NCBI GenBank assembly: GCA_016125405.1
Contig: WGLW01000010.1
Span: 62,001 to 126,000, forward strand
Direction of reading: 5' to 3'
DNA from: Alphaproteobacteria bacterium
Lineage (GTDB): Bacteria; Pseudomonadota; Alphaproteobacteria; Caulobacterales; Hyphomonadaceae
Length of the DNA: 64,000 bases
Of this stretch, positions 34,983-60,125 are shown piece by piece (positions within the stretch are counted from its first letter, which is position 1; each line of letters opens with the position of its first letter). Position numbers and translations under genes: made by a program. Under the pieces are notes generated by a model. That model was not told the origin of the DNA and searched no databases. It saw nothing but the letters and a program-made list of their open reading frames with translations.

Positions 34983-35215
34983 AGTGCTGCGTCCCGTTCT
35001 GCCATGCGGAGACGCGCCGCTTCGAGGAAGACAGCTCCGAATGGATCTGCTCCGCCAATTGGGATTGTGTCGACAGGCGGATCCGGAAGGCCTGGCGACC
35101 CGGTCGCGGCGACGCCGCCTGGTGGACGGCGATGATCAAGCGGCAAGCCGTGTTCGGCGGTCTGGTCATGCGGGTGAAAGAACATAGTGCGGCGGTGCGT
35201 GTCCCCGGGTCGTAA
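34979..35215 (+). CDS. Small zinc-finger-like phage protein
   Basis: A 78-residue protein starting with GTG. CCVPFC and ICSANWDC are spaced like a four-cysteine zinc ribbon found in many phage proteins with unknown role. Start chosen from the GTGA overlap with the preceding gene; the frame also has an ATG upstream at 34940 inside that gene. Confidence 0.55.
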   Translation: MKCCVPFCHAETRRFEEDSSEWICSANWDCVDRRIRKAWRPGRGDAAWWTAMIKRQAVFGGLVMRVKEHSAAVRVPGS

Positions 35216-35272
35216 CGGGGTCGATAAGCGGGCCTCACGCTGGCCAAAGGCCGTCTTGCGGAGTCGCACACG

Positions 35273-35668
35273 ATGTCGAACAGCAACTTCAACGGCCGCA
35301 TGGAGGACATCTCCGAGCAGACGAAGCCGGCCGAGTCGGTGCATCGCCTGCTGTCGGCCTTCAACACAACCAACGCCACGGTGGCGAAGAACGCGCCGTG
35401 TGTCCTGGACTCGATCGATCTCTGGAACGCCGGGACGGTTACCTATCTGAAACTCTACGACAAGGCGACGGCGCCGGCGGAAACCGACACTCCGGTTCTC
35501 ACGATCTATCTCGCGGCGTCGCTGACCCGGAATATCCAGTTTCCCAAGGGTCTCAAGTTCGCGGCTGGGCTGGCCTATCGCATGACCACGGCGGGCGCCG
35601 ACAACTCGACGGCTGCGGTCGCCGCGGCGGCCGTGCTGGCCATGAACATGGCGTATCGGGCGCTCTGA
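35273..35668 (+). CDS. Virion-associated-like protein, unknown
   Basis: A 131-residue beta-rich protein. Segments such as APCVLDSIDLWNAG, YLKLYDKATAPAETDTPVLT and FPKGLKFAAGLAYRMT recur in phage genomes, usually near structural genes. Here it lies in the replication region, away from the capsid and tail cluster. GGAG is ten bases before the ATG. Confidence 0.6.
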   Translation: MSNSNFNGRMEDISEQTKPAESVHRLLSAFNTTNATVAKNAPCVLDSIDLWNAGTVTYLKLYDKATAPAETDTPVLTIYLAASLTRNIQFPKGLKFAAGLAYRMTTAGADNSTAAVAAAAVLAMNMAYRAL

Positions 35669-35805
35669 TGAAAACGGCGCTGGCCCTGCTGGCCGGCGCG
35701 GCCTTCCTCCTCGCCTTTGCCTGCCTCAGCTATGCTGCCGGCTATCTCATCGTGGCGTCGCTGGTTTCTTACGCGGTAGACGGCCTGGTGGCAGGCTTGC
35801 GATGA
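35668..35805 (+). CDS. Very small membrane protein, phage
   Basis: A 45-residue, almost entirely hydrophobic protein (KTALALLAGAAFLLAFACLS). Its ATG overlaps the TGA of the preceding gene, the same coupling used elsewhere in the prophage. Its 3' end overlaps the converging minus-strand gene. Confidence 0.5.
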   Translation: MKTALALLAGAAFLLAFACLSYAAGYLIVASLVSYAVDGLVAGLR

Positions 35806-35995
35806 AGCACCGGGCCCGCTGCATCTCGACCTCCTTGCAGATCGCAATCGCCCGGTCGGTCCAGACCTTGAAGGCCGGATAAGGCATAACGAACTGCCAG
35901 CCGCCTGGTGTCTGTGTGTGGACATCCGAGATCCGAATCCGGATGTTGTCGCCTTCGATTCCGATGTTGCCATCGGCTCCAACAAATTGAACCAT
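35747..35995 (-). CDS. Small phage protein, unknown
   Basis: An 82-residue protein with two beta-rich stretches (GNIGIEGDNIRIRISDV; GGWQFVMPYPAF). GAGGAA six bases before the ATG supports it as a real gene despite the 59-base overlap with the convergent small membrane gene. Function unknown. Confidence 0.6.
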   Translation of the reverse strand: MVQFVGADGNIGIEGDNIRIRISDVHTQTPGGWQFVMPYPAFKVWTDRAIAICKEVEMQRARCFIASLPPGRLPRKKPATPR

Positions 35996-36147
35996 GGTCT
36001 ATTCCTCGTTTTATGTCCCCGACCGCGCGCGTCCTTTCGTTGGCGCCCGTTTTTGGGGCAGACAGAAACCCTGTAGTGTCGCCGGTTTCGAAGGCCTGAC
36101 CGCGATCAGCGAAACTTCATCTATTGTCGGGGCAGCCCCCGAGAAAC
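35996..36147. other. Intergenic gap with no gene
   Basis: About 150 bases between the 35995 start and the terminator at 36148. I see the ribosome binding site of the left gene and nothing else that can be supported; its promoter presumably lies here. Confidence 0.4.
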
Positions 36148-36178
36148 AAAAAAACCCCCGCAGACGAGCTGCGGGGGT
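36148..36178 (-). terminator. Intrinsic terminator ending the leftward cassette transcript
   Basis: ACCCCCGCAG at 36154 pairs with CTGCGGGGGT at 36169 around ACGAG; seven T residues follow on the minus strand. It lies 22 bases past the stop of the 283-residue membrane protein. Confidence 0.88.
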
Positions 36179-36199
36179 CAAGGCGGGGGAGCAACGTGA

Positions 36200-37051
36200 T
36201 TACTGGCCGGCGGCGCGACGTTGTGCGGCGCGCTGCTGAAACGCCGAGATGCCGGCTTCCCGTGTGATGCCAGCCTGCAGGATCTTGCGACCCCGGCCGG
36301 CTTCGGCGACATCCGCGAAGGCTGCGGCCTGGCGGATCTCGCTGGGTCCCTTCGGGCCCTTTGGAGACGGCAACAGACGAATGGCGCCACCCTTCGGCCG
36401 CTGGGCCTCGTGGATGTCGCGAGGCTTGCCGTGACCGAAGAGAGCGAACAGCAGGAGCAGGTTCAGGGCCGTGAAAGCCGCGGCGCCGATTCTGTTGTAG
36501 CTGTCCGACCAGGCCACCGCCGCATGTGCAACGGCGTCCTGGCGCGCCATCGTCTTCCGGGCCTGCGCCAGAGCATCGGATTTCTCTTCCTGCGCTTTGA
36601 CATCCCCGTCTTCAGGGAAGATCGAGCGCCGGGAGATCATGTCGAGCTGGCTGGTCAGCCGGTCGGCGTCGGCCTTGGCGACGTTGTAGGCCACCAAAGC
36701 ATCAGCCTGGGCCGCATAGGCCTGCCGGTAGATCTGGCCGCGCAGCACCGTGGCGCCTTGCTCCACGCCGAAATAATCGACGCAGACCAGAGCGGCGCCG
36801 ACCAGCAGCAGTGCGAGACCCCGGAAGAAACCCGGACCCTCGAACAGCGTCGGTAGCGTGAGCGCGATCAGCGTCGCCGCCGAGATATGCCCGGCCACAA
36901 GGGCCGGCACGACGTCGAAGTGATCCGGCTTGGCCCAGCCGATCCACGCCAGAAAGGCGCCGTCGGCCAGAAGTACGGCCCAGGCCACGATGATGGCCGC
37001 GCCGCGCAGAAACCGGCCGATATGGAAAGGCCGGCTGGGTGTGGTAGTCAT
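36200..37051 (-). CDS. Phage membrane protein with coiled-coil region
   Basis: A 283-residue protein with about four membrane segments: three before residue 90 (AAIIVAWAVLLADGAFLAW; VVPALVAGHISAATLIALT; GLALLLVGAALVCVDY) and one near residue 200 (AAFTALNLLLLFALFG), separated by a helical charged stretch that may form a coiled coil. Its position near the switch and last in a leftward transcript suggests a host-interaction role such as superinfection exclusion, but I have no direct evidence. Confidence 0.6.
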   Translation of the reverse strand: MTTTPSRPFHIGRFLRGAAIIVAWAVLLADGAFLAWIGWAKPDHFDVVPALVAGHISAATLIALTLPTLFEGPGFFRGLALLLVGAALVCVDYFGVEQGATVLRGQIYRQAYAAQADALVAYNVAKADADRLTSQLDMISRRSIFPEDGDVKAQEEKSDALAQARKTMARQDAVAHAAVAWSDSYNRIGAAAFTALNLLLLFALFGHGKPRDIHEAQRPKGGAIRLLPSPKGPKGPSEIRQAAAFADVAEAGRGRKILQAGITREAGISAFQQRAAQRRAAGQ

Positions 37052-37059
37052 CGGGTCTT

Positions 37060-37067
37060 GCTCCCAT
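37060..37067 (-). promoter_or_regulatory. Start-associated sequence, gene at 37051
   Basis: On the minus strand ATGGGAGC ends eight bases before the start codon. The same octamer precedes every gene-start of the 36-38.5 kb array except the second gene of the two-gene module. GGGAG can serve as the Shine-Dalgarno. Confidence 0.65.
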
Positions 37068-37078
37068 GCAAGGCGGAC

Positions 37079-37102
37079 CCTGCAGCGCGCGAACGCTGCA
37101 GG
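37079..37102 (-). other. Hairpin with CGCGAA loop
   Basis: A perfect 9-bp stem (CCTGCAGCG and CGCTGCAGG) encloses CGCGAA (TTCGCG on the coding strand). No T-run follows. A second perfect 10-bp hairpin with a GAAA loop lies at 37114-37137. Confidence 0.75.
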
Positions 37103-37143
37103 ACCCGGGGATTCCGCCGGCGGGAAACCGCCGGCGGGGTCTC

Positions 37144-37515
37144 TCACGAGACTGGGGAGGGGCTTCGCCCGCCCCGCGTGAACGGAGCGGGTGGCAAGTC
37201 AGCCGTCACCATCGATCATAATATCGAGTGTGAAGCGTCCCGGCTCATTACGGCCATGAGCGCCCCAGCAGCAGGCGCAACCCGGGTTGGTATCGAACAG
37301 GTCCGTGGTGCGCCGCAGGGTGATATGCATCACCGGTTCAAGGCTTTCGCGCAGTTCGGCCAGCCAATCATCGAACTCCGGGGTTCGGAATTCTCTGTTG
37401 CTGTACTCCATCGCGCATTCGCCGCAGATGTGAACGTATTGTTTGATGATGCTGCGTTCGTCGATCATTGTTTTGCTCCCATGAGGAGGGCGTAAGCCCC
37501 TCCCCAGTCTCGTGA
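37144..37515 (-). repeat. Inverted-repeat module 1
   Basis: The left arm 37144-37170 and right arm 37488-37515 are reverse complements: 22 bases perfect plus five more after a one-base gap. Between them lie a hairpin with CGTGAA loop (about 37172-37190), one gene, the ATGGGAGC element at 37475-37482 and a hairpin at 37483-37505. Confidence 0.85.
37199..37468 (-). CDS. Small cassette protein, unknown (module 1)
   Basis: An 89-residue acidic protein with cysteines in HICGECAMEY and GCACCWG that could bind a metal. No family recognised. The ATG at 37468 is preceded by the array's ATGGGAGC element with six bases between. The gene is the only one inside its inverted-repeat module. Confidence 0.6.
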   Translation of the reverse strand: MIDERSIIKQYVHICGECAMEYSNREFRTPEFDDWLAELRESLEPVMHITLRRTTDLFDTNPGCACCWGAHGRNEPGRFTLDIMIDGDG

Positions 37516-37519
37516 TGTC

Positions 37520-37893
37520 CACCAGTCCTCTCCCGGAACGCCTCGACCTGCGCGAACAGGAGGAGGCGCCCGGCGGCTAGGCCGCGAAGGCGTAGAGACG
37601 ATTGGTCTCGACGCCTTCGACCCAGCGCAATTGCTTGTGACGGAGGCCGAACAGTTGCCGCGCCTCGATCGAGTGGAAGAGGCACAACGACCGGGTTCCG
37701 CCTGGCGCTTCGACAACCCAGACGGAGAGGAAGAGGCCCCTTCCGGCGCGATCGAGGTCGCGCAGCAGGTCAAGCGTCGGCCGCTTGTCCGTCTCACCCA
37801 GGGGGCAAGGCGGCAGAGTGAGATGGTCATAAGCGAGAATTTGCATATCAAGCTCCCATGCCGGGCCAGAGGCGGCCCGAGGGAGGACTGGTG
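37520..37893 (-). repeat. Inverted-repeat module 2
   Basis: CACCAGTCCTC at 37520-37530 is exactly complementary to GAGGACTGGTG at 37883-37893. Inside are a CGCGAA-loop hairpin (37541-37566), one gene, ATGGGAGC (37852-37859) and a CGGGCC/GGCCCG hairpin (37861-37879). Only four bases separate it from module 1. Confidence 0.75.
37577..37846 (-). CDS. Small cassette protein, unknown (module 2)
   Basis: An 89-residue protein with alternating hydrophobic pattern suggesting a mixed alpha/beta fold (MQILAYDHLTLPPCP, GRGLFLSVWVVEA). No family recognised. The ATGGGAGC element ends five bases before the ATG. Confidence 0.6.
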   Translation of the reverse strand: MQILAYDHLTLPPCPLGETDKRPTLDLLRDLDRAGRGLFLSVWVVEAPGGTRSLCLFHSIEARQLFGLRHKQLRWVEGVETNRLYAFAA

Positions 37894-37966
37894 ACCACGA
37901 TGCACCCGGGAGGGCTGCGGGGAGCCTCAGAGGGCTCCACGCGCGAACGTGGAGCCCTGCAGGCAG

Positions 37967-38155
37967 TCAGTAGCCCAGAGCGGACAAAACCTCCCAGGCG
38001 TCGATCCTGTCGTCCCTGAAGAGGGGTTGCAGTTCGGATCGGATGTCGATGTCCTGGTCGATATCGTGATTGTTGAGCACGAGCTCGACCTGGCGGCGGG
38101 TCCACAACACCGGTTCCCCGTCATTGTGGGCGTCGTAGATCTCTTCTGACGTCAT
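37967..38155 (-). CDS. Small cassette protein, unknown (module 3, second gene)
   Basis: A 62-residue acidic, helical protein (SEEIYDAHNDGEPVLWTRRQ). It follows the membrane protein gene by three bases and is the one array gene without its own start-associated element, consistent with coupling. Unknown function. Confidence 0.55.
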   Translation of the reverse strand: MTSEEIYDAHNDGEPVLWTRRQVELVLNNHDIDQDIDIRSELQPLFRDDRIDAWEVLSALGY

Positions 38156-38158
38156 GGC

Positions 38159-38398
38159 CTAGTCCTCCTCGCTGACGGGGCGACGCCAGATCGGTTCGAG
38201 GAGGTCGATGAGATTGACGTACATCGATACGAAACTGAGCCCGCAACCGATAGAGGCGGCCGCGGCGAACATCAGCAGCACCGGCCAGTAAGGCGAGCCG
38301 GCATAGATGGCGAGAACGAACCAGCGCGCGGCGATGAAGCCGAGCGCTGCCGAGACGCCGAAGAGGACCGCCGTTGCGGCGATGTAGAGACGTTGCAT
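38159..38398 (-). CDS. Small membrane protein (module 3, first gene)
   Basis: A 79-residue protein with two hydrophobic segments (about 5-32 and 38-62). No family recognised. The ATGGGAGC element ends seven bases before the ATG at 38398; the in-frame extension upstream crosses the inverted repeat and hairpin and is not used. Confidence 0.6.
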   Translation of the reverse strand: MQRLYIAATAVLFGVSAALGFIAARWFVLAIYAGSPYWPVLLMFAAAASIGCGLSFVSMYVNLIDLLEPIWRRPVSEED

Positions 38399-38448
38399 TG
38401 TTGTTGCTCCCATGATGGAGGGCGAAACCCTCCCGGGTGCATCGTGTC

Positions 38449-38562
38449 GCGTGACGCTCGAAGGGACCGCCCGTACCTGCGCGAACAGGCGAACGGGGCG
38501 GCCGGTAAGCCATTTGAAGTGCTCCCATACCGGGCCAGAGGCGGCCCGTTGGAGCGTCACGC
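38449..38562 (-). repeat. Inverted-repeat module 4, without gene
   Basis: GCGTGACGCTC at 38449-38459 is exactly complementary to GAGCGTCACGC at 38552-38562. Inside are a CGCGAA hairpin (38467-38501), ATGGGAGC (38521-38528) with an ATG seven bases on, and a CGGGCC hairpin identical to module 2's. Only 19 bases lie between hairpin and start element, so the gene is missing. Confidence 0.75.
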
Positions 38563-38822
38563 TTGCGCATCCTGGAGCGGGTGCGCGGGGTCCTGCGATG
38601 TCAAACAGCGGCTGAAGCCTGGGCCTCAGAATGTCTCTATGTGTGACGAAAAGGTTTAACGAAGCGATAACGGCTGCGCAACGCTTCGAGGAAAATCGCG
38701 GGTTCACGTCGAGAACCGCCGGAATCGCCCGTCACTACGGGAAACATTGATGCAAGCGATGTTGTCGTGACCGCTGGCCTGGCGTTTATGCAGTGTTGAG
38801 GTCTTAAGGTGGGTAAGGGCCA
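38563..38822. promoter_or_regulatory. Divergent intergenic region with operator-like site O3
   Basis: No gene is seen in these 260 bases between the leftward array and the rightward packaging arm. The site at 38632-38648 is, on the minus strand, CGTCACACATAGAGACA, identical to O1 except for the first base, so the CI/Cro switch may control the array. No convincing promoter hexamers could be fixed; a rightward promoter is also expected. Confidence 0.55.
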
Positions 38823-39350
38823 ATGGCGCGCGATCATCTCCATGAGAACCCCGAAGCACGAGACAGGATCGAACAGGAGCGATGGGACCAGCTCCTGCAG
38901 CGCAAGGCCCGGGATGGCGCCCAGCTACTGCGCTACAGGCTCTCGGGGGGCTGGTTTCTATCCATTCCGGCGGTGCTGCGTCGCGGTGATGGCGTCATGC
39001 TGATGCGGCGTCGTCGAACGCTGTTCGGCCACAAGGTGCAGTACGAGGGTCACGTCGTCGCCGAAGCCGGCGTCTCGATGGATGATGTCGCGCTAGCGGA
39101 CGCTCTAGAGATCCTGGAGCGCTGGGTACTCACACCGGCCACCAAGGGCGTCAAACTCCTCGAGGACGGCCGTCTGGCCTTCGGGATCGACGCCACCGAA
39201 TATGCTGAACTCAAGGACCGCCTCGGGCACGGTCTCACCAGGCTTCCCCTCAGTGACGACGAACAGTTCAGCCACGGTCGCCTGGTCTTCTTCGTGGCCG
39301 GTTCCCATGCCTGGCAACGCGGCATGGCGCCCGGCCAGGTGTTGTCGTGA
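38823..39350 (+). CDS. Phage protein, unknown
   Basis: A 175-residue protein with a helical N-terminus and a mixed C-terminus (TLFGHKVQYEGHVVAEAGVSMDD). No family recognised. AAGGG precedes the ATG; the stop overlaps the GTG of the next gene. Confidence 0.6.
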   Translation: MARDHLHENPEARDRIEQERWDQLLQRKARDGAQLLRYRLSGGWFLSIPAVLRRGDGVMLMRRRRTLFGHKVQYEGHVVAEAGVSMDDVALADALEILERWVLTPATKGVKLLEDGRLAFGIDATEYAELKDRLGHGLTRLPLSDDEQFSHGRLVFFVAGSHAWQRGMAPGQVLS

Positions 39351-39604
39351 AGCTCTGGACCATCGCTGAAGCCCTGTTTCTGGCCCCTATGGGATGGTGG
39401 GCGACCAGTGCGCTTGGGGACGTTATCCAGGAGCCCGGCAGGCCCCTCGCACTGGCGGCCCTCTGGAGTGTCTGCTTCGCGTTCTCGCTGACCTGGTCGC
39501 TACGCTTGGCCGCCCGCGTCGTCAGGGCATTTGTCGAGCGTGAGCCAACTCCAAACAACCCAACAAAAACAAAGCCACCGCTTCATCTCGCGAAGAGAGA
39601 ATAA
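39347..39604 (+). CDS. Small two-span membrane protein, phage
   Basis: An 85-residue protein started by GTG with hydrophobic stretches at about residues 5-25 and 34-58. A holin is possible by shape, but it lies far from the endolysin, so I leave it unassigned. Confidence 0.5.
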   Translation: MKLWTIAEALFLAPMGWWATSALGDVIQEPGRPLALAALWSVCFAFSLTWSLRLAARVVRAFVEREPTPNNPTKTKPPLHLAKRE

Positions 39605-39703
39605 CAAACACTCTCACCCTAATGCGTGTGAGCGCGCGCAGCGCGCCACCAGGCCCCTCGGGTGCGTGTCTCACAGTGAGGCGCAAGCTCTAGACACGCC
39701 CAC

Positions 39704-40225
39704 ATGGCAGGCGCTTCAAAACATCGGCAGGAAGTCCTCGATCTGCAACGAGCGATACGCGACCTCGAACGCGAGAACGCAGACCTCAAGGTCAAGGTCG
39801 CCCTGCTCGATCCGGAAGCGGCACTGGCCGACATCCCGCCCATCGTCGAGAAATGTACGCAACAGCTATGCGACCAGGTCCTCGCCATCGGAGCGCAAGG
39901 ACTCGGGCATGACGAGATCAAGGCCAAGCTCGGCATCAAGGATGAAGACTGGGAGGAGTGGTGTATTAAACACCCCCAATTCGCGGCGGCCGCGGCGCGC
40001 GCAAAGACGATGGGCCGGGCTTATTGGTCGAAGATGGCGCGTGAGTCCATCGAGCGCGGCGACAATCGCTTCCCCGTCAACACGTACAGCGCCTTGATGG
40101 TGCAGATGTTTTCGCAAGGCAGTGGCAAGCATGGCGATGCATCCAAGCTGCTCGTGCTCGATCTCGCAACGGTGTCGCAGACCCCTCCACGTCGCGCGAA
40201 ACGCCCAGCAATGACGGGCAAATGA
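39704..40225 (+). CDS. Candidate terminase small subunit
   Basis: A 173-residue protein with an N-terminal coiled coil (LQRAIRDLERENADLKVKVALL) and a helix-turn-helix-like region (GLGHDEIKAKLGIKDEDWEEWCIKHPQF). This layout and its location before TerL fit a DNA-recognising small terminase subunit. Assignment rests on context and HTH pattern only. Confidence 0.55.
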   Translation: MAGASKHRQEVLDLQRAIRDLERENADLKVKVALLDPEAALADIPPIVEKCTQQLCDQVLAIGAQGLGHDEIKAKLGIKDEDWEEWCIKHPQFAAAAARAKTMGRAYWSKMARESIERGDNRFPVNTYSALMVQMFSQGSGKHGDASKLLVLDLATVSQTPPRRAKRPAMTGK

Positions 40226-40429
40226 GATGAAAAAGTTCCGACCTGTCCCCAGTTGGAACCGGTGGGGGGCGCCCCTCCAAAGCGCCACCCCCGGGGGAAA
40301 AATCGGGCGCGCCACGGAAGCACGTATATATCCCGCAAAAAAATTTCTGAGCTTTGCAATTGAACCCGGTTTTCAAAATCCGGGCTTTGCTCGCCCCCAA
40401 TTTCGGAAAACGGAACGGAGGATCCTGCG
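40226..40429. other. Gap between packaging genes, possible packaging site
   Basis: About 200 bases without a gene. It has a G/C-rich block that can pair (around 40258-40296), an A/T-rich stretch near 40325-40350 and an imperfect hairpin CCCGGTTTT/AAAATCCGGG near 40364-40384. A cos or pac site is often next to terminase genes, but nothing here proves it. Confidence 0.3.
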
Positions 40430-40963
40430 ATGACGGCAGTGGCCTATCGGAATGGCGTCCTTGCGGTGGACAGCCTGGCGCAGAACGGCGGGTTCAAGCT
40501 CTCGCCGCCGGCGGACAAGGCGGTAGCGGTGGAAATCGCGGTGGGGCAGTTCGCGCTGGTGGCCGGCGCGGGGTCTGCCGTGGTTGTCGACCGGGTCAGG
40601 GCCTGGGCGCTTGCCAACCTGAAGGACTGGGCCCGGCGGAGCTGTCCTGTCGACGAGCTGCCGGAGATTGGGCCTGATGATGACACAACGGTTTTCATTC
40701 TCCTGCCGGATGGACGTCATTTCGCGCTGCAGGAATGCGGAGGCGACCGACTGACCGCGCCGTTCTTTGCGACGGGGGAATTCACCTTCTTGCTCGGGGC
40801 CATGGCGGTGGGCGCTTCAGCGGCGTCGGCAGTGGCGGCTGCGGCCGAATATTCCGTTCACTGTGGCTGGCCGATCAGGATCTACGACCACAAGAAGGGG
40901 TTCCGGATCGCGCTGCAGGACATGACGCAGGTCCGGAACTGGGACCGCGCGGAGCGGCCGTAA
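40430..40963 (+). CDS. Proteasome/HslV-like NTN hydrolase-like protein
   Basis: A 177-residue protein resembling peptidase T1-type folds: Thr2 directly after Met, D14 in VLAVDS, and the C-terminal GAMAVGASAASAVAAAAEYSVHCGWPI segment similar to the proteasome-like helix region. Phage members of this type sit near head genes and may act as maturation or host-interaction proteins; catalysis is not shown. GGAGG precedes the ATG. Confidence 0.5.
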   Translation: MTAVAYRNGVLAVDSLAQNGGFKLSPPADKAVAVEIAVGQFALVAGAGSAVVVDRVRAWALANLKDWARRSCPVDELPEIGPDDDTTVFILLPDGRHFALQECGGDRLTAPFFATGEFTFLLGAMAVGASAASAVAAAAEYSVHCGWPIRIYDHKKGFRIALQDMTQVRNWDRAERP

Positions 40964-51107: not shown

Positions 51108-52780
51108 TGGCCGGTTCCGGTCTTCCTCTCAAAGTTCAGACTGGGCCGTCGCCGATCCCTCAGATCAGCGGCGCTGGCGATGCCGCGCAGTTCGAGGCGT
51201 CGACCTTTGCCGAGGTTGCCCGGTCGGCGTCGCTGATCGGCGCTGATCTTCGCCGACAATCCGTCGTCGACGCCAAGAAAAAGGCGGTCAAGGATTTTGG
51301 CCAGCAGGAACAGCAGACCCACGATGGCCAGCTGGTGGCAAGCCCGGAACACAAGGGCTTTCTCGGAATCAAGCTGGCGTCCGACGAGGCCTACAACAAC
51401 ATGATCGAGGCGCTGACGCTGGAGCGCGCCAAGACGGATGCGACCGACCAGGTCGTCCAGCTGCGCGCCGATCACTTCGGCGACGTCTCCGGGTTCAACC
51501 AGGCGCTCGACGGCTGGCGCAAGGGCTACATGGAGCACGCGCTCCCGGAAACGGCTCCGCAGGTCCACCAGATCATCGAGCAGACCGCCCGCGATGGTCA
51601 GAGGGCTGTCATATCCGATCGGGTGCAGGCCGATATCAAGGAGGCCCGGTCAGCAATGGACGCCGGAATCGAACGGCTGACCGGCGATGCCGAGATCCTG
51701 CTCAAGGACGGCGCCGCCCCGGACTCGCCCGACGTGAAGGAGAAGCTGGCGGAGATCCAGGACCGTCTGACAACCAAGGTCAACAATCCGCTCTATGAAT
51801 ATTCTGCTGAGGAGCACGGCCTTGACGCCGACGCCCTGGCGACGCGCATGGAGGTTGCGGCGCTGACCCCGGAGGTCAGGAAAGCATTCAACAAGGGTGG
51901 CTATGCATCGGCTCTCGAGGCCGCTGACACGATCACGGATGCACTGCACCGGGATCAGGCTACGACGGTCAAGATCCGGTCGGCGCTGCGCAATGAAGCC
52001 AATCTGCTCGAGACCGTCGAGAATGCCAAACAGTCCGCCCAGCGTGAGGCCGATGCGGCGGAAACGAAACGACGCAAGGAAGTCGGCACGAAACTCGACG
52101 AAGCGGCGGTACGCCGGATCTATGATCCCGAGGCCAAGGCGCCGGATCGCATCAAGGCCGTCGAGGCCGCGGCTCCGTACATCACTGGCGACCGGTTCGG
52201 CACGCTCTACAAGCTGGCGGTGAAGGGTCCGAATTCCGAGGGCGACGACGGCATCGACTATCCGCGTCTGATGCAGCTGGCGCGCACCGGGCAGCTCACG
52301 GCCGATGAGGCCTTTGATCAAGGCGCCGGGCTCACCGGGACCCATCTCAACAGCATCCTGGATGAGGTCCAGCGCCACCAGGACAAGGACTTCAAGGCTG
52401 GCGACGATATCCTGAAGGGCGCCTTTGCGCAGAGCCAGTTCGAATTCGCACCGGCGCTGGCGGCTTCGGAGGCCGAAGCCAACGAAGAACTGCGGGCCTG
52501 GCGCCAGCGTAACCCGGAGGCCGATGCGCTCGTGGTGACGCAGAAAGCTCGGGAGATCGCGGCGCGCCGTGGTCGATCGGCGGCCGTGACCATGGTTTCT
52601 GACATCAATGCCCGGACATCGACGACGACCGCGCCGACAACCAAGGATGTGACGGCGCGGATGCAGGAGCTCGAAGACGGCATCGACTCCGGTACGTTGG
52701 ATGAGGACCGGGCGGTCGAAGAATATCAGCAGCTCAAGGAAGTGCTCCGGCTGCTGGAACTTGGCGATGGCAAAAAATGA
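51107..52780 (+). CDS. Internal virion protein, gp15-like
   Basis: A 557-residue, strongly helical protein with long charged stretches (for example ENAKQSAQREADAAETKRRK) and no membrane segment. Its position between a gp14-like protein and a giant protein suggests an ejected internal virion protein. GTG start overlaps the previous stop. The function is inferred from order only. Confidence 0.62.
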   Translation: MAGSGLPLKVQTGPSPIPQISGAGDAAQFEASTFAEVARSASLIGADLRRQSVVDAKKKAVKDFGQQEQQTHDGQLVASPEHKGFLGIKLASDEAYNNMIEALTLERAKTDATDQVVQLRADHFGDVSGFNQALDGWRKGYMEHALPETAPQVHQIIEQTARDGQRAVISDRVQADIKEARSAMDAGIERLTGDAEILLKDGAAPDSPDVKEKLAEIQDRLTTKVNNPLYEYSAEEHGLDADALATRMEVAALTPEVRKAFNKGGYASALEAADTITDALHRDQATTVKIRSALRNEANLLETVENAKQSAQREADAAETKRRKEVGTKLDEAAVRRIYDPEAKAPDRIKAVEAAAPYITGDRFGTLYKLAVKGPNSEGDDGIDYPRLMQLARTGQLTADEAFDQGAGLTGTHLNSILDEVQRHQDKDFKAGDDILKGAFAQSQFEFAPALAASEAEANEELRAWRQRNPEADALVVTQKAREIAARRGRSAAVTMVSDINARTSTTTAPTTKDVTARMQELEDGIDSGTLDEDRAVEEYQQLKEVLRLLELGDGKK

Positions 52781-55700
52781 TGACCAGCTAGACCAGGTCT
52801 ACGGTCGCCAGCTGGACGCCGATCAGAAGTCGGCCGTTATCGCCGAGATGAAGGCGAAGGCGCAGGCCAGGAAGCCTCCTCCTGACGCGCAGACCGATGC
52901 CGCGGCTGCCGAGCCGGCAGACCAGAAATCAATCAAGCTGCCGTCGAATCTCTTCGGCGTCTGGGATGTCGCCAAGACCTGGCGCGCCATGAAGGGCGTC
53001 GGAGAAGACATCGCCACCACGGTCGAGCATCCCGGCGATGCGGCTATGTCCGCGATGCAGGGGATCCGGGACGCCGGTATTCAGGCGCCTGGGGCGTTGG
53101 CCCATCTAGCCTACGACGTCCCGAACGAGATCGGGGCTTTCCTGCTCAATCCCCCGCGGTTCGGCCCGGTCCCGGAGGCAGTTCGTGCGCAAGGCAAGGC
53201 CGCCGCCGACGCGCTGATGGCGGAGACCCGACGCGGCAGCGCCTATATCGATGAGGCGACGAAGGCGCTGGATGCTGCGATCCCGCAGGTGGCCGAGGCC
53301 CATACTGGCACGGAAGGCTTCATTCAGGGGACGACCCAGTTCCTGGCGGGTCTCGCCGCGACCCATAAACTGGTTCCGGGGAAGATCGGCGGAACGGCCG
53401 GCGCCGACATGGTTGTCCGCAACGCCGCCGCCAACGTCCTGGCGTTCGATCCCAAGGATCCGACGCTTGGCAACCTGGTCCAGCAATATTTCCCGCAACT
53501 CAAGGACAGTTGGGAGACCGCGACTTCGATCGACGCCGGCGATTCGACCGGAACGGATATGCTGAAGCGTGCTGCCGACAGTCTCGGCATGGATGCCATC
53601 GGCGGCGTTCTCGGCGCTCTTGCGGGTATCGTGCGCAGCGGCAAGCGCGCCGCCAAGATCAAGGCCGACGCCGGCGAAGCTGGCGGCGAGGTTCGCGACA
53701 AATCAAGAGAGATCGCCGACCAGGAAGCCGAGGCGGAGCGCGCCGTCGCCGGACTTGGCGATCCCGCCGCGCCGGCGGTCAGTGACGGTCCGTCTGCGGC
53801 GCCGCGGATGTTTCAGGGCGAGACCAACCCGGAACAGCAGGCCGTGCGCGTAGAGGCTGCGGCGCGCCGTGCTGGCGTCCTTGATGAGCCGGCGCCCGAG
53901 ATCTCGCAGGCCGAAGCCGAAGCCGAAGCGATCGGAATGGGCGGGACGCCACGGAGCGTCGACCAGATCCTCGAGATGATGGATCAGGCGAAAGCTGGCG
54001 AGCGGCCGCGTCCATTGGCGACGTTCGTCCGGAGTCAGGGTGGCATCGCGGATACCCCGCATTTTGCCGGCGAGATCGACGCCATCGGCGGCAAGAAGCT
54101 GAAGAACAAGAACGGCGTCGATTTCGAGACCATGGCGGAGCGCGCCGCCGAGGCCGGTTACATCCCGCTCGACGAAAACGGCCGCTACGACGTCAACCAG
54201 TTCATTGACGCCCTTCGGGACGACATCCAGGCGGAAGACGCCGGCGACATCGCGAGGCGGGCCTATTCAATTAACGACGCCACCGCCGCGGCCAAACTGC
54301 CGGACCTGTTGCGCCTCCAGCGCGAACTCCAGGACATGGGCGTCGACTGGAGTATCCGGGGCAAGAACAAGCGGCGGGCACACGCCGCGCAGGCGGCGGA
54401 ACAGGCGACCTTCACCGGCGCGCCGCGGACGCTCGATGATCTCGACGCGGTGCAGAACCAGATCGACGCCGCAGGAACGTCAGGGTTTCGGCCGTATGAC
54501 GACACGACCCTGGGCCCGGACCCGGCCCTTGACGCTTCTGGCCTCTTCGATCCCGAGGCCGCCTCGAAGCTCGACCCTCTCGAGATGAAGGTCCAGCTCG
54601 GCCGGTTGTCGGATAGCGAGGTTCTGGACTCAGCGGAGGCCTATCTCGGCGCCGCGGTAAAGACGCCGGACCAGGCGCGGATCCTGCTGCTCAGCAAGGC
54701 CATGGCGGGACAGGAGACCGGGATTGCCCGCGACGCCGGCAAGCTGTCCCCTGAAGAACGCGCTGCGGTGCTCGACCAGACCGGCGAGGAGGGCGGTGAA
54801 GGGCCTGCCGCTGGTCTTGATGAGGGCGGCGAGGGCGGCCAGCCGACGCCGGAGGAGCCGCCCTGGAAGACGGCCGAGGGCAAACGCCAGTTGGCGCAAC
54901 GCGTCCTCAAGATGCCGGAATCCATGCAGTCCTTCATTCTCGACGAAGGCATCAAGAACGCGACCGACGCCGAACATCGTGCAGCGATGGAAGAGGTCCG
55001 GCAGCTCGTCGAGAATACGAAATCAGCGAAGTTTGCCGATTCTGCCGAGGATGCATTCGTGCGCGCCGAACGGGCGCTGCAGCCAACCCGGCCGCTATCC
55101 CGCCGGGAGGCGTCGCTGCTGGATGAGACCGTCGCTGCCGGTGGCGATCTCTGGCAGGGCCTCAAGGACCGAGGAATCCGGGACGACGCAGCCGCTGAAA
55201 TGGTGGCGCACGCCGTCGCCGATGAGCGCGTGGGCATCGCCAGAGCAGTGCGCGCTGCGGCTGATGTCAGCGCCGGGCGGTCCGTCCGCGGCGATGGTCA
55301 AACGCCGGACTTTCGGACAAAGGCCCACATCGCACCAATCATCGAGGCCGGAACGGCTCAATACCCCGAACTGGCAGCCAAGCTGGCGGGGATCCGCTAC
55401 TGGGTTGAATCGCAGACAGCCGCCGGCCGGAAGGTGGCCGTCGACGACATCGCGCGCGCTCTGGGCATGAGCCATGGCGCTGTGCTGCAGGATCTGGCGC
55501 GCCTCCGACATGAAAAGGTCTTGCTAGAGATCGATGGGCTCCGTCCGCATCTCTGGAAGACCCGAGATCTGTTCGCGGATGGCCAGGGCGGCCGGACGCC
55601 CTCGGCGATTGACGACGCCGAACTGGAATACGCGGCCGGAACGAAGCCGGATCCCCGGGGTCGTAAATCGCTCTCGGAACAGCAGTTCGAGGTCTTCAAG

Positions 55701-58700
55701 CTTGCCCGCGAAGGCAAGGGCAACAAGGAGATCGCCGAGATCCTGGGCGGGCCTGAGGCGACGAAGTCGACGGAAACTATCGCCACGGTGCTGGCTCAGA
55801 TCCGTCGCAAGGGCTTCGACGTCGAACGCCTGAAGGGACCAGTGAAGGATCCTAAGACGCTCCGCATCATCGAGCTCCGGGCGCAGAACCTGCCCTACAA
55901 GGTCATCGCGGAACGCATCTATCCTGAAGTCGATCTCGAAGTCGCCGAGCGGCGCGTCAACGCGCTGATCGCCAAGAACAAGGAGGCCATCGCAAAGCGC
56001 CGTTCGGAGCTGTCCGCTGATTCCAAGCCGGGCGCGCCGGCAGGGAACGCGCAGACGCCGCGCGAAATGGTCAACACGTTGATGGCCCGCATTACGGAAG
56101 ACTTCGGCACGGCCGGGGAACAGCTGATTCGGTCCGGCGCCGTCGTTCTACACCGCAGCGCCAACACGGTTCCGACGCTCACCCACGCGACGACGGAAGC
56201 GGTTTATTCGAATGGCGTCGTCCACATCCTGGCCAACCGGATCACGCCTCAGCGGCTCTATGGCCTGATGCTGCACGAGGTCGGCGCCCATGCCGGGCTG
56301 CGCGACATGCTGGGCGGCGACGTTTACGACGCCATCGCGGCCAACATCCTCAAGTTGGCCGGCGAAGGCGACCAGGCCGCATGGGAGGCTAGTCGTCGCG
56401 TCCACCCCAGAACGCTGATGGAGCATGTGCCCGACGAGCTGATCGCCTATTACATCCAGGGCGCGCCGCGCGACGCATCGATCTGGCGCCGCATCGAGGG
56501 CGCGATTCGGGCCTGGCTCTACAAGACCTTTCCGAAGGCCGCCAATCTGATCAAGCCGACGTCCGAGGCGCTGCGCCAGATGGCGGTGAAGTCCCTGCGT
56601 CGCTATGCAAAGCTGTCGATCGACCGTGAATACGCCCTGGGCGGCGACAACGATTTCATCGGTTTCTATTCAGGTGTCGATCGTGGACTTCGCGGCATCG
56701 AAGGCGACAGGATCAGCGGCGACGAGCTCATGGCGCGCCTCAGGGAGCAGCCCGGGGTCAACGAAGAGGAGCTTCAGAACCTTGGTATCGAATCCTGGCT
56801 GCAGGGCCGCGCCAGCGTCTCCATGGCCAAGGTCCGGCAGTTCGTCGATGATCGCCGCCTCTTTCTCGACCGCAGCCTGACAACGGTTCGGGGCGTCAAA
56901 GGTGATCTCCGCTTCGGTCGCACCGACGGCGCGCGCGATGTCATCTTCCGGTTGCCGGAGGACGTCCCAGGCGGCCAGTACAGCGCTTCGGGATCGCCGA
57001 ACAAGGGCGTCCTCTCCGTCGCCCGGCTGTCGGATCGCCGCGCCAGCGATGGCCGCAAGGTGACGTTCCTCGAAAATCTCGACAGCGACATCCATCCGCT
57101 CAACGGTTATGGCTTCACGCGCCCTGAAGTCATCGATCCCGCCATCGCTGAACGGCAGGACCGCCTGCTCGCCGAGGTCGAAGGCCTGCAGCGTCCGCTG
57201 GACTTCCTGGAAGGGCAGGGTACCGGCGCGGCGACCAGCCTGCCCGAATACCAGGCCTGGCGGACGAAGCGGCAGGAGCTGCTCAACGACATCGCTGAGC
57301 ATGGCGACCACATCGGTTACATCGCGGGTCAGATCGGCAGGCCTTTCCCGCCGGCAGGGACGCCGCTGAAAAACTGGGCGACGACGACGATCCGGAACCT
57401 CCTGGCGTCGACCAGCGTCACCGATGCCGAGGGCTTCGCCATTCCGACCCCGGCGATGTTCCGCGACCTCAGCGAGGAACAGAAACAGTTCTGGGGCGCC
57501 ACGGTCAAGGATGCGCTGGAACAGGCGGCGAAGGACCTCGATCTCGACGTCAGCACGACGCCGCTTCGCATGGGACGTCTCGGCGAGCCGGAGGCTCCGG
57601 TTATCTGGCTCGATGACGCCGATCGGGCGCGCATCGTGCAGACCGGCGTACCGCTCTATGCTGATGCGCGGCAGGGTCAGGCGCCGGGCAGCATCGACCC
57701 GCCGAACCAACTCAACGTCGCGGCCCCGGGCGGCCGGAAGATCTATGTCAACCTCGCGCGGGTGGCGGCCGATGGAGACATCAAGGGTCTGATTCAGTCG
57801 CTGGCCAACCGCTATGCCGGCGAGATCAACAAGGCCCGCGGTGGTGAACGTCAGGCGGATGCCGACCTGCTGGCGTCCTCGGCGCAGGTCGATGCCTGGG
57901 AGACACTCCGCAGCCGCAGGTCAGGCGAACCGCTGGGGGCCAAGGAATCACTGGCGGCCCGCCAGCTCTGGGCGGCGTCGGCGGACTGGGTGTCGCAGAT
58001 CTCGAAGCGCTATCTGCAAAGCAAATCGCCGGCTGACAAATTCGCACTGAACCAGGCGATTGCGGTTCACCGCGCCATCCAGGCGGAGGTCGTCTCGGCG
58101 CGAACCGAGACGGCGCGCGCCTTGCGGTCCTGGGCGCTGCCGGCGGGCTCGACGGCCGAGAAGTTGAACCAGATGCAGGGCATCCTGACGATGCACGGCG
58201 TCGACCATGCCGACGAGCTGGCAGGCCGTCTCGCCGTGCTGGGCCCTGACCAGGTCGGGATGCTGGATGAGGTCGTCGAGAAGTCGCTAAGGGCCAAGAC
58301 GTCGGATGTCCTAGGCGAACTGTGGCGTTCCGCGCTTCTGTCGAGCCCGAAGACCCACCTGGTGAATTTGCTCTCGAACACCGCGGTTCTGTCCTATGAC
58401 GTCGCAGAGACCGCGGTATCCGGCATCGTTGGCCGCGCCCTCGGCAACCCGGCCATGGGTGAGATGGTCGGCGAGGCGGCCCAGAAGTGGGCGGGCGTCA
58501 TGGCCGCCTATCGGGCGCAGATGAAGTTCTTCCATGAGAACCGCCGCTTCTCAACGACCGCCGGAGCGCATGACGTGGTCGCGGGGACCAAGGTCGACGC
58601 CGCTCACGCCAATGCCATCTCCTCCGAGGCTTTCGGGCTCAATCCGGAAAGCCAGGTTGGGGCGGCCGCCGACGTCGTCGGCCGTGTGATCAATACACCG

Positions 58701-60125
58701 CAGGCCCTGCTGGGCGGCGCCGACGACTTCTTCAAGGGCGTCAATTACATGGGTGAACTTTACGGCCGGGCCCATCGGGCGGCGGCGGATGAGGTCCATG
58801 CCGGGCTCCTGGAGCGCGACGCCATGGGCGCCCGCATCGCGGAACTCGTCGACCAGCCCTCCGAGGAGATGCAGATCGCCGCGCGCCAGGCGGCGCAAGA
58901 ACGGACCTTCACGACGCCGCCCCGCTATGGTGGCGTCGTCTCGGCGATGTTCAAGGCGCGGGACTGGATGAACGGCGCCGGCCTGCCGCTAGGCCATTTC
59001 GTCCTGCCGTTCATCAACACCCCGGCGAACATCATGAAGTGGACGTTCTCGCGGACGCCGGCGGGGCTACTGATGCGCGAGATGCAGCAAAAGCTGCAGG
59101 CCGGCGGCAAGACCGCACAGCTGGCCAAGGTCCAGATGGCAATGGGCACGATGGGTCTCAGCCTCGCCTGGGAGCTTGCGGCGTCGAACCAGATCACGGG
59201 TGGCGGCCCGGTCAATGCCGGAGACCGGCAGTTGCTGGAACGGAACGGCTGGCAGCCCTACAGCGTCCGGGTGGGCGACCACTGGGTCAGCTATCAGCGC
59301 TTCGATCCCCTGGCGACGTTCCTGGCCATCGGCGCGGACCTACACGAGATCATCGCCAACCGGGACTACACCAACAATGGCGGAACGGAGATCGGCGAGG
59401 TCGTCGCCCAGTCGATGGGGGCAATCGGCAACTCCTTCCTGTCGAAGACCTATCTGCAGGGCGTCTCAGATTTCAACGCCTTCCTCGGCGACCCACGCCG
59501 CTATGGCGAGCGCTATCTCGAGAACATCGCGGCCTCCATGGCTGGCCCGGCCGGCATCGCAGAGATCCGGCGGCAGGTCGACCCGGCGATGCGCGATGTC
59601 CATTCGATCGCGACGGCGATCAAGAACCGCTGGCCCGGCGCGTCTGAAAGTCTGCCGGCGGCGCGCGACCTCTGGGGCCGTCCCCGGATGTATCAGTCCC
59701 ACTGGGGTATGGCCTACGACGCCATGTCGCCGTTCGCGGCGCGGAAGATCGATCCGGCGCCGGTCGATAAGGAGCTGATGCGGCTGCGCTATGCGCCGCA
59801 GCTGCCTGGCCGGTCGATCTCGGTCCCGATCGGAGGCCGCTCCGTCATGGTCCCGCTCAACAACCGGCCCGATATCTACAACCGGGTCCTGGAGCTGTCT
59901 GGCGACCGGGCTCTCAAGATGGCCAATGATCTTGTCCAGTCGGCGGGCTATCAGGGTCTGCAGGATTCCTCGGAGCCGTTGCCTGGCACCAAGGCCTACG
60001 CGATCGAGACGATCATTCTGCGCAACCGGACCTACGGCCGCCAGCTGGCCCTTCGCGAATACTGGGGCGATCTCCAGGACCTCGCCCGCAAGGAACTGGC
60101 GCGGGAACTGGAAGCCACGCCCTGA
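52767..60125 (+). CDS. Giant polyvalent virion protein with zincin-like and LPD38-like domains
   Basis: A 2452-residue protein, likely injected with DNA like other large polyvalent phage proteins. In order: a helical N-terminus, low-complexity linkers, a region with two helix-turn-helix-like stretches (around residues 890-990), a zincin-like H1170-E-V-G-A-H1175 motif, further enzymatic-looking domains, then from about residue 1850 a region beginning ELWRSALLSSPKTHLVNLLS with FVLPFINTPANIMKW near 2078, matching the LPD38-type C-terminal module. The ATG at 52767 overlaps the preceding gene by 14 bases; the ORF has no frameshift. Confidence 0.78.
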   Translation: MAKNDDQLDQVYGRQLDADQKSAVIAEMKAKAQARKPPPDAQTDAAAAEPADQKSIKLPSNLFGVWDVAKTWRAMKGVGEDIATTVEHPGDAAMSAMQGIRDAGIQAPGALAHLAYDVPNEIGAFLLNPPRFGPVPEAVRAQGKAAADALMAETRRGSAYIDEATKALDAAIPQVAEAHTGTEGFIQGTTQFLAGLAATHKLVPGKIGGTAGADMVVRNAAANVLAFDPKDPTLGNLVQQYFPQLKDSWETATSIDAGDSTGTDMLKRAADSLGMDAIGGVLGALAGIVRSGKRAAKIKADAGEAGGEVRDKSREIADQEAEAERAVAGLGDPAAPAVSDGPSAAPRMFQGETNPEQQAVRVEAAARRAGVLDEPAPEISQAEAEAEAIGMGGTPRSVDQILEMMDQAKAGERPRPLATFVRSQGGIADTPHFAGEIDAIGGKKLKNKNGVDFETMAERAAEAGYIPLDENGRYDVNQFIDALRDDIQAEDAGDIARRAYSINDATAAAKLPDLLRLQRELQDMGVDWSIRGKNKRRAHAAQAAEQATFTGAPRTLDDLDAVQNQIDAAGTSGFRPYDDTTLGPDPALDASGLFDPEAASKLDPLEMKVQLGRLSDSEVLDSAEAYLGAAVKTPDQARILLLSKAMAGQETGIARDAGKLSPEERAAVLDQTGEEGGEGPAAGLDEGGEGGQPTPEEPPWKTAEGKRQLAQRVLKMPESMQSFILDEGIKNATDAEHRAAMEEVRQLVENTKSAKFADSAEDAFVRAERALQPTRPLSRREASLLDETVAAGGDLWQGLKDRGIRDDAAAEMVAHAVADERVGIARAVRAAADVSAGRSVRGDGQTPDFRTKAHIAPIIEAGTAQYPELAAKLAGIRYWVESQTAAGRKVAVDDIARALGMSHGAVLQDLARLRHEKVLLEIDGLRPHLWKTRDLFADGQGGRTPSAIDDAELEYAAGTKPDPRGRKSLSEQQFEVFKLAREGKGNKEIAEILGGPEATKSTETIATVLAQIRRKGFDVERLKGPVKDPKTLRIIELRAQNLPYKVIAERIYPEVDLEVAERRVNALIAKNKEAIAKRRSELSADSKPGAPAGNAQTPREMVNTLMARITEDFGTAGEQLIRSGAVVLHRSANTVPTLTHATTEAVYSNGVVHILANRITPQRLYGLMLHEVGAHAGLRDMLGGDVYDAIAANILKLAGEGDQAAWEASRRVHPRTLMEHVPDELIAYYIQGAPRDASIWRRIEGAIRAWLYKTFPKAANLIKPTSEALRQMAVKSLRRYAKLSIDREYALGGDNDFIGFYSGVDRGLRGIEGDRISGDELMARLREQPGVNEEELQNLGIESWLQGRASVSMAKVRQFVDDRRLFLDRSLTTVRGVKGDLRFGRTDGARDVIFRLPEDVPGGQYSASGSPNKGVLSVARLSDRRASDGRKVTFLENLDSDIHPLNGYGFTRPEVIDPAIAERQDRLLAEVEGLQRPLDFLEGQGTGAATSLPEYQAWRTKRQELLNDIAEHGDHIGYIAGQIGRPFPPAGTPLKNWATTTIRNLLASTSVTDAEGFAIPTPAMFRDLSEEQKQFWGATVKDALEQAAKDLDLDVSTTPLRMGRLGEPEAPVIWLDDADRARIVQTGVPLYADARQGQAPGSIDPPNQLNVAAPGGRKIYVNLARVAADGDIKGLIQSLANRYAGEINKARGGERQADADLLASSAQVDAWETLRSRRSGEPLGAKESLAARQLWAASADWVSQISKRYLQSKSPADKFALNQAIAVHRAIQAEVVSARTETARALRSWALPAGSTAEKLNQMQGILTMHGVDHADELAGRLAVLGPDQVGMLDEVVEKSLRAKTSDVLGELWRSALLSSPKTHLVNLLSNTAVLSYDVAETAVSGIVGRALGNPAMGEMVGEAAQKWAGVMAAYRAQMKFFHENRRFSTTAGAHDVVAGTKVDAAHANAISSEAFGLNPESQVGAAADVVGRVINTPQALLGGADDFFKGVNYMGELYGRAHRAAADEVHAGLLERDAMGARIAELVDQPSEEMQIAARQAAQERTFTTPPRYGGVVSAMFKARDWMNGAGLPLGHFVLPFINTPANIMKWTFSRTPAGLLMREMQQKLQAGGKTAQLAKVQMAMGTMGLSLAWELAASNQITGGGPVNAGDRQLLERNGWQPYSVRVGDHWVSYQRFDPLATFLAIGADLHEIIANRDYTNNGGTEIGEVVAQSMGAIGNSFLSKTYLQGVSDFNAFLGDPRRYGERYLENIAASMAGPAGIAEIRRQVDPAMRDVHSIATAIKNRWPGASESLPAARDLWGRPRMYQSHWGMAYDAMSPFAARKIDPAPVDKELMRLRYAPQLPGRSISVPIGGRSVMVPLNNRPDIYNRVLELSGDRALKMANDLVQSAGYQGLQDSSEPLPGTKAYAIETIILRNRTYGRQLALREYWGDLQDLARKELARELEATP

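Follow-up and report, generated by a model that had tools for sequence, protein, structure and literature searches.

Tandem inverted-repeat modules in a leftward prophage operon as candidate self-closing cistron domains

Genomic context of the leftward operon

The window, i.e., the whole stretch of 64 kb that was analyzed, is part of a 3.86-Mb genome (G000:C18:62001-126000). It harbors four abutting modules bounded by inverted repeats, downstream of which a terminase, a head-tail connector (PF12236), and a GP7-family major capsid protein (PF20911) are encoded in rightward direction. As its capsid protein shares 48.9% identity with the counterpart in Bordetella phage BPP-1 and 43.9% with the one in phiV10, the prophage can be classed, judging by sequence, as BPP-1/phiV10-like. 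A related capsid protein occurs in 91 of 50,697 phage records, all of them less than 60% identical. The late region further contains a reading frame of 2474 aa (52701-60125), whose product is presumably a large protein of the internal virion or polyvalent type; it holds two hairpins with the loop CGCGAA, by chance or because of coding.

Between the rightward early region and the late genes sits a leftward operon, consisting of modules 4, 3, 2, and 1 in this order, a fifth gene, and an intrinsic terminator at the operon end (36153-36179, minus strand; 11-bp stem and T-run). The third-position G+C of the operon genes (0.69-0.82 vs. 0.81-0.87 in three rightward prophage genes) is part of a codon-position G+C that resembles other prophage genes, and the operon genes are therefore probably real. 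None of the five operon proteins gave a family match above the curated cut-off, and six Rfam matches at E ≤ 1 were all under their gathering scores. A promoter scan of 35000-40500, relying on a consensus that is poor for this host group, returned no sigma-70-like site on either strand. An exact TTGACA is present on the leftward strand at 38599-38604, approximately 40 bases upstream of the module 4 arm and without a good -10 box; the transcript could begin close to this arm.

Architecture of the four modules

In the leftward RNA, the modules are laid out as 5′ arm, hairpin A, the start motif ATGGGAGC with the SD sequence GGGAG, start codon, gene(s), hairpin B, and 3′ arm. The segments span 372, 374, 551, and 114 bp (modules 1 to 4) with gaps of 4, 2, and 2 bases, and their perfectly complementary ends comprise 22, 11, 19, and 11 bases, respectively. 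Arms, lengths, spacings, and the abutting of the segments had been claimed in a preliminary description of this DNA and were borne out by the inverted-repeat search. The single layout assigned there to every module holds for arms, hairpins, and start motif but not for gene content, with two genes (79 and 62 aa) in module 3 and no plausible one in module 4. All features listed in the following lie on the minus strand, the hairpins being taken from local folds and the start motifs from a motif search unless indicated otherwise.

The 5′ arm of module 1 (37494-37515) is a 22-bp perfect complement to the 3′ arm (37144-37165), and five more pairs follow after one bulged base. Its inner part doubles as the 5′ strand of hairpin A (37482-37505, local fold -15.9), next to which the start motif including GGGAG is found (37475-37482). 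The gene (37199-37468; codon-position GC 0.57/0.44/0.69) encodes 89 aa without family assignment, and hairpin B (37168-37192) carries the loop CGTGAA on the plus strand. The 89-aa product contains CGEC and CACC clusters and could bind metal.

Module 2 possesses a 5′ arm with a perfect core of 11 bases (37883-37893) and an imperfect extension to 37869 (25 nt, 84% complementary), matched in the inverted-repeat search by a 3′ arm with an equally long perfect core (37520-37530) and an imperfect extension to 37544. Hairpin A (37861-37879), of which 19 bases are identical to the module 4 hairpin, is followed by the start motif (37852-37859), a reading frame of 89 aa to which family searches assigned no family (37577-37846), and hairpin B with CGCGAA as plus-strand loop (37538-37570).

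Within module 3, the 5′ arm (38428-38446) is a 19-bp perfect complement to the 3′ arm (37896-37914), and its inner part likewise doubles as the 5′ strand of hairpin A (38417-38433). Downstream of the start motif (38406-38413), a reading frame for a hydrophobic product of 79 aa (38159-38398) precedes a second gene of 62 aa (37967-38155) with a weak match to phrog_11448 (E 0.0089, function unknown). Hairpin B (37931-37958, hairpin search) consists of an 11-bp perfect stem with the loop CGCGAA on the plus strand.

Module 4 is bounded by arms with perfect cores of 11 bases, the 5′ arm at 38552-38562 with an imperfect extension to 38540 (23 nt, 87% complementary) and the 3′ arm, obtained as inverted repeat, at 38449-38459 with an imperfect extension to 38471. 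Hairpin A (38531-38548) and the start motif (38521-38528) are followed by an ATG and no plausible gene. Since start motif and ATG run directly into hairpin B (38468-38503, loop CGCGAA on the plus strand) and the frame then continues across module 3 in another frame, we regard module 4, on the basis of its reading frames, as empty, with no convincing gene.

The fifth gene (36200-37051, minus strand), a reading frame of 283 aa without a family in family searches, calls for a correction to the four-module picture: it is preceded by the same start motif (37060-37067) and a CGCGAA hairpin (37074-37107, hairpin search and local fold) and has no arms. The complementarity of its 5′ and 3′ ends was no better than random, being equaled by a fraction of 0.416 of 500 random stretches. 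Eight bases of its 3′ UTR (36140-36199), TTGCTCCC, are complementary to the start motif GGGAGCAA.

Arms and start-site hairpins

New in the present analysis is the observation that the 5′ arm extends, in all four modules, into the 5′ strand of hairpin A beside the ribosome-binding site. The preliminary description had treated arms and hairpins as separate elements; this has to be revised, as the arms overlap the 5′ hairpins and are not independent of them. In modules 1 and 3, this overlap falls within the perfect core, in modules 2 and 4 within the imperfect extension. As a consequence, closing of a module competes with hairpin A. The outer part of the arm stays clear of hairpin A over approximately 10 nt in module 1, 13 nt in module 3, and 14 nt in modules 2 and 4 (11 of them perfect). 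When the inner 15 bases of the 3′ side were replaced by random 15-mers of the window, the fraction reaching an equal duplex was 0.001 in module 1, 0.005 in module 2, and 0.014 in module 4; in module 3, a fraction of 0.29 was as good, so that the extension of this duplex into hairpin A is not significant. Modules 2 and 4 have a start region in common and different outer arms, yet in both the 3′ side matches its own 5′ partner. Cognate arm duplexes range from -41.3 to -52.9 kcal/mol vs. -14.9 to -33.2 kcal/mol for non-cognate ones, a low cross-pairing that unrelated arms would likewise give.

The minimum free energy fold of 37045-38575 closes four of four modules. The fold of the whole operon (2431 nt) closes modules 1, 2, and 4 with a mean probability of 0.98-1.00 and leaves module 3 open (probability 0.0; ~94 pairs leave the module), with the uncertainty that attaches to thermodynamic folding of such long, GC-rich RNA. 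For modules 2 and 4, the fold energies suggest that hairpins A and B together with the 11-bp core are more stable than the long duplex.

Folded singly, all four closed modules have a mostly paired SD. GGGAG of module 1 is unpaired at 0.57-0.90 in the nascent 5′ end vs. 0.06-0.28 in the full module; barring just the last 30 nt still left the SD mostly paired, namely to the remaining 3′ UTR. In modules 2 to 4, the SD is predicted to be paired with or without the 3′ arm, and the fold gives no on/off change. Its partners there are initially bases of the 5′ arm or bases just upstream of hairpin A, and others later on; in module 3, later pairing with GCUCCCC of the 3′ UTR is predicted. The complement of the SD motif, GCTCCC, is present in the 3′ UTRs of module 3 and the fifth gene. 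Burial of the SD was set aside as proof of regulation because a control with 22 other prophage genes speaks against it: their mean SD openness spans 0.00-0.76 (mean ~0.36), making burial alone weak evidence, and the unpaired fractions in local folds of modules 2 (0.15) and 3 (0.25) fall inside this range.

Processing by RNase III is known from T7-type intercistronic processing and from the stems flanking ribosomal RNAs. It could, although we consider this rather improbable, account for the modules without any translational switch, the arm stems being cut and the cistrons freed with hairpin A guarding the 5′ end and hairpin B the 3′ end. Duplexes of 22-27 nearly perfect pairs, hairpins just inside both arms in four of four modules, and only 2-4 bases between abutting modules agree with this explanation, and cutting of a 5′-3′ UTR duplex is described for icaR (PMC3868564). 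However, a guard hairpin should sit clear of the arm, whereas in each module hairpin A shares bases with the arm or its extension, so that cutting would remove part of it; moreover, modules 2 and 4 offer only 11 perfect pairs.

RNA or DNA level and distribution of the operon

Eight of the nine local hairpins, which are not fully independent owing to their shared loop, fold more stably in the leftward than in the rightward RNA, and the ninth ties. In 14 hand-delimited helices, the non-Watson-Crick positions of the leftward strand comprise eight G-U, three A-C, and six others; the ratio of G-U to A-C is suggestive of leftward RNA in a small sample. The arm duplexes show no strand preference (two of four each way). 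Together, the strand evidence leans to RNA.

Two readings had been offered initially, namely long-range RNA stems of a putative protected or self-regulating mRNA, and DNA segments with arms as points of exchange or inversion. RNA stems fit better, given the leftward genes, the arms reaching into the ribosome-site hairpin, the hairpin stabilities, and the G-U positions, while DNA exchange or inversion finds no positive sign, since the start motifs all point one way and differing arms give no shared crossover. We thus regard DNA gene cassettes as less likely than the RNA reading and, in absolute terms, as unlikely. In such cassettes, the shared hairpins and start motif would be swap boundaries, the arms exchange or inversion points, and module 4 a cassette that was emptied. 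The empty module 4, the unrelated genes within one framework, and the sequences common to modules 2 and 4, i.e., a start region of 34 nt (91%) and the hairpin B core CCTGTTCGCGCAGG, are in line with this explanation. An integron-like system would have one type of recombination site common to all cassettes, but the modules differ in arm sequence, so that the cassettes would lack a recombination site in common. The five start motifs share one direction, the own genome contains no second copy of the framework, its single assembly copy is the only form seen, with none inverted, and among 15 genus genomes the exact hairpin A is restricted to two known places. Past gene swaps would be compatible with module 4 being empty and with the hairpins recurring.

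Among all genomes, phages, plasmids, and viral contigs searched, the operon was found only in its own genome. A joined query of the proteins of modules 1 and 2 with the 62-aa and 79-aa proteins retrieved the own genome only from 105 family genomes, phages, and plasmids, apart from a match in G022 that was rejected for being out of frame within a 660-aa reading frame. The same query without the 79-aa protein gave none in genome contigs and the own genome only in 385 class genomes. No match to the 283-aa protein was obtained in phages or viral contigs, and only the own one in 398 order genomes. In viral contigs, the module 1 protein matched two AT-rich loci (63% over 19 residues) that are devoid of the module framework and were judged unrelated. 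The TerL query gave none in genome contigs and two loci in viral contigs, one of which (L065, 47%) lacks such modules over the 2.5 kb preceding TerL; the portal query gave none in viral contigs. Three framework patterns were encountered in 0, 7, and 5 stretches of the viral contigs; 10 of these 12 stretches have no inverted repeat of at least 12 bases nearby, and in the other two, L076 and L078, such a repeat measures 14 and 13 bases, respectively. Allowing up to three mismatches, hairpin A was no more frequent in the 15 genus genomes than the reversed control.

Shared motifs and chance expectation

The motif GCTCCCAT has five copies in the window, all in the operon stretch, each just upstream of a start codon and all oriented one way. 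Their count alone is not significant, as 19 of 100 shuffles reach five; significant is the placement before start codons, not the count. Four copies were present in the host sample, none with a start codon 2-9 bases on. Among perfect hairpins of the window with a 6-nt loop and a stem of at least 6, CGCGAA is the commonest loop (4 of 38), and two of these four, lying inside the 2474-aa reading frame, were excluded from the operon set. In the leftward RNA, the hairpin B loop reads UUCGCG, or UUCACG in module 1.

Conservation of this UUCGCG/UUCACG loop in five hairpins, including one upstream of the armless fifth gene, would suit RNA hairpins bound by a protein such as an antiterminator or repressor as the working part, the arms being minor or by-products. 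We hold this to be very unlikely, for it leaves the perfect 19- and 22-base arms and the chain of modules unexplained, and no regulator was identified.

Among the perfect inverted repeats of the 64-kb window with 20-800 bases between arms, those with 22 and 19 bases rank first and second in length, followed by one of 15 bases. With arms of at least 11 bases, a loop of 40-700, and a gap of at most 6, a single chain of four abutting pairs is present in the window. Of 200 dinucleotide shuffles of the window, 191 were without an abutting pair, nine had a chain of two, and none a chain of three; the longest arm in any of them measured 16 bases. Host control DNA (433,681 bases, of which ~44 kb are window DNA outside the modules) yielded two chains of two and one arm of at least 17 bases. 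Apart from L045-L047, copies of this same region, the viral and relative loci (566,948 bases) contained no chain and three arms of at least 17 bases. The assertion of the preliminary description that the layout lies beyond chance is upheld by the chain of four vs. at most two in shuffles and control DNA. A chance or mutational by-product without function, e.g., of template switching, is regarded as highly improbable, for although the finding comes from a single genome and perfect arms could be recent, four such pairs stand in a row with the same internal order and shuffles and control DNA never exceed two.

Operator repeats were set aside as counterparts, given that the long TTGTCCAT- or TTGCCTCG-type inverted repeats of L013 and BPP-1 are not chained around genes. 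In L013, a viral contig whose capsid protein is related, direct and inverted repeats of the TTGTCCAT type form an array within an apparently non-coding stretch (600-1100). BPP-1 (L056 11608) carries a 22-base inverted repeat of TTGCCTCG type with 60 bases between arms, just past the endonuclease gene bbp27 and near bbp28.

Comparison with known systems

By analogy, and as far as the available texts describe them, the nearest known systems appear to be the fold-back mRNAs of the icaR and hok/aapA kind and the mycobacteriophage ESAS. The 3′ UTR of icaR mRNA of Staphylococcus aureus is reported to pair with the SD region, to block initiation, and to invite RNase III (PMC3868564). All four modules share its hallmark, a 3′ UTR complementary to the own 5′ UTR or SD, and with it the predicted pairing around the SD; the UCCCC-type anti-SD of icaR moreover resembles GCTCCCC of module 3 and the fifth gene. 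As described in that source, icaR is one monocistronic gene with a short motif, whereas four tandem modules with perfect arms of 11-22 bases are present here on one putative transcript. In type I toxin mRNAs (hok, aapA3), the full-length message is described as folded shut, with metastable hairpins during transcription (PMC6733600). The competition of early local hairpins with a later long-range fold is similar to what is predicted here, but, compared with the account given there, the present operon has several cistrons and its genes mostly do not encode small hydrophobic peptides; only the 79-aa product fits this description, and the 89-aa products of modules 1 and 2 appear non-hydrophobic on inspection. 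For an antisense antitoxin RNA on the other strand, the promoter scan mentioned above, with its consensus poorly suited to this host group, listed no candidate site.

Start-associated repeats of mycobacteriophages had been put forward as the nearest analogue. Cluster K phages are reported to carry SAS/ESAS, a repeated SD-like motif before genes with an inverted repeat just upstream (PMC3203893), and the arrangement of an inverted repeat directly upstream of an SD-type repeat recurs here as hairpin A before ATGGGAGC in four of four modules. This part of the analogy stands, but the motif differs, the 13-bp GGGATAGGAGCCC given in that source having zero occurrences in the window, and ESAS repeats are local according to the same text. 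The right half of TM4 contains five exact SAS (GGGATAGGAGCCC) and no abutting inverted repeats. For E. coli operons, ORF-wide mRNA structure domains are reported, each operon ORF folding as its own domain as envisaged here; in contrast, the available text describes no dedicated closing arms (PMC5318159). Within titles and opening abstracts of the open-licence PMC papers listed by the searches, we found no description of a tandem series of gene-bracketing arms.

Proposed mechanism and implications

Our favored reading, put forward tentatively and with slightly less than even confidence, is that the leftward genes form an accessory operon of a BPP-1-like prophage, transcribed into an RNA made up of self-closing cistron domains, the 3′ end of each folding back on its own start. 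In this model, fold-back would control the translation of each cistron and probably its processing by RNase III. The outer 10-14 bases of each module would clamp its two RNA ends together. The inner arm would toggle between hairpin A, which is local and would be the first to form on the nascent RNA, and a longer duplex with the 3′ end that would arise after completion of the cistron. In this way, the 3′ end of each cistron would act on its own start, and closing would alter the pairing options of the SD and create a duplex of 23-27 bp suited to RNase III. Fold-back of the kind known from icaR or hok would allow translation and turnover to be set for each gene separately within one transcript, and the differing arm sequences would prevent cross-pairing between the domains. 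As for the direction of the switch, closing as the off state would be the likelier option, and the fold-back control would probably act together with RNase III, which would cut the closed stem.

In a more general form, which we consider doubtful at present, the locus may exemplify a polycistronic phage mRNA of orthogonal self-closing domains with one or two genes each, in which an outer clamp is combined with an inner strand-displacement switch between the start-site hairpin and the duplex with the own 3′ end. A gene would be translated or cut as a unit only once its own 3′ end exists, and genes would be swappable within a fixed frame. Pairing of 5′ and 3′ UTRs in bacteria is known from single messages. 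If the proposed reading is true, one transcript would be divisible into independently controlled RNA units by sequence alone, which would provide a ready-made part for multi-gene RNA construction as well as a direct test of why the ORFs of operons fold as separate domains.
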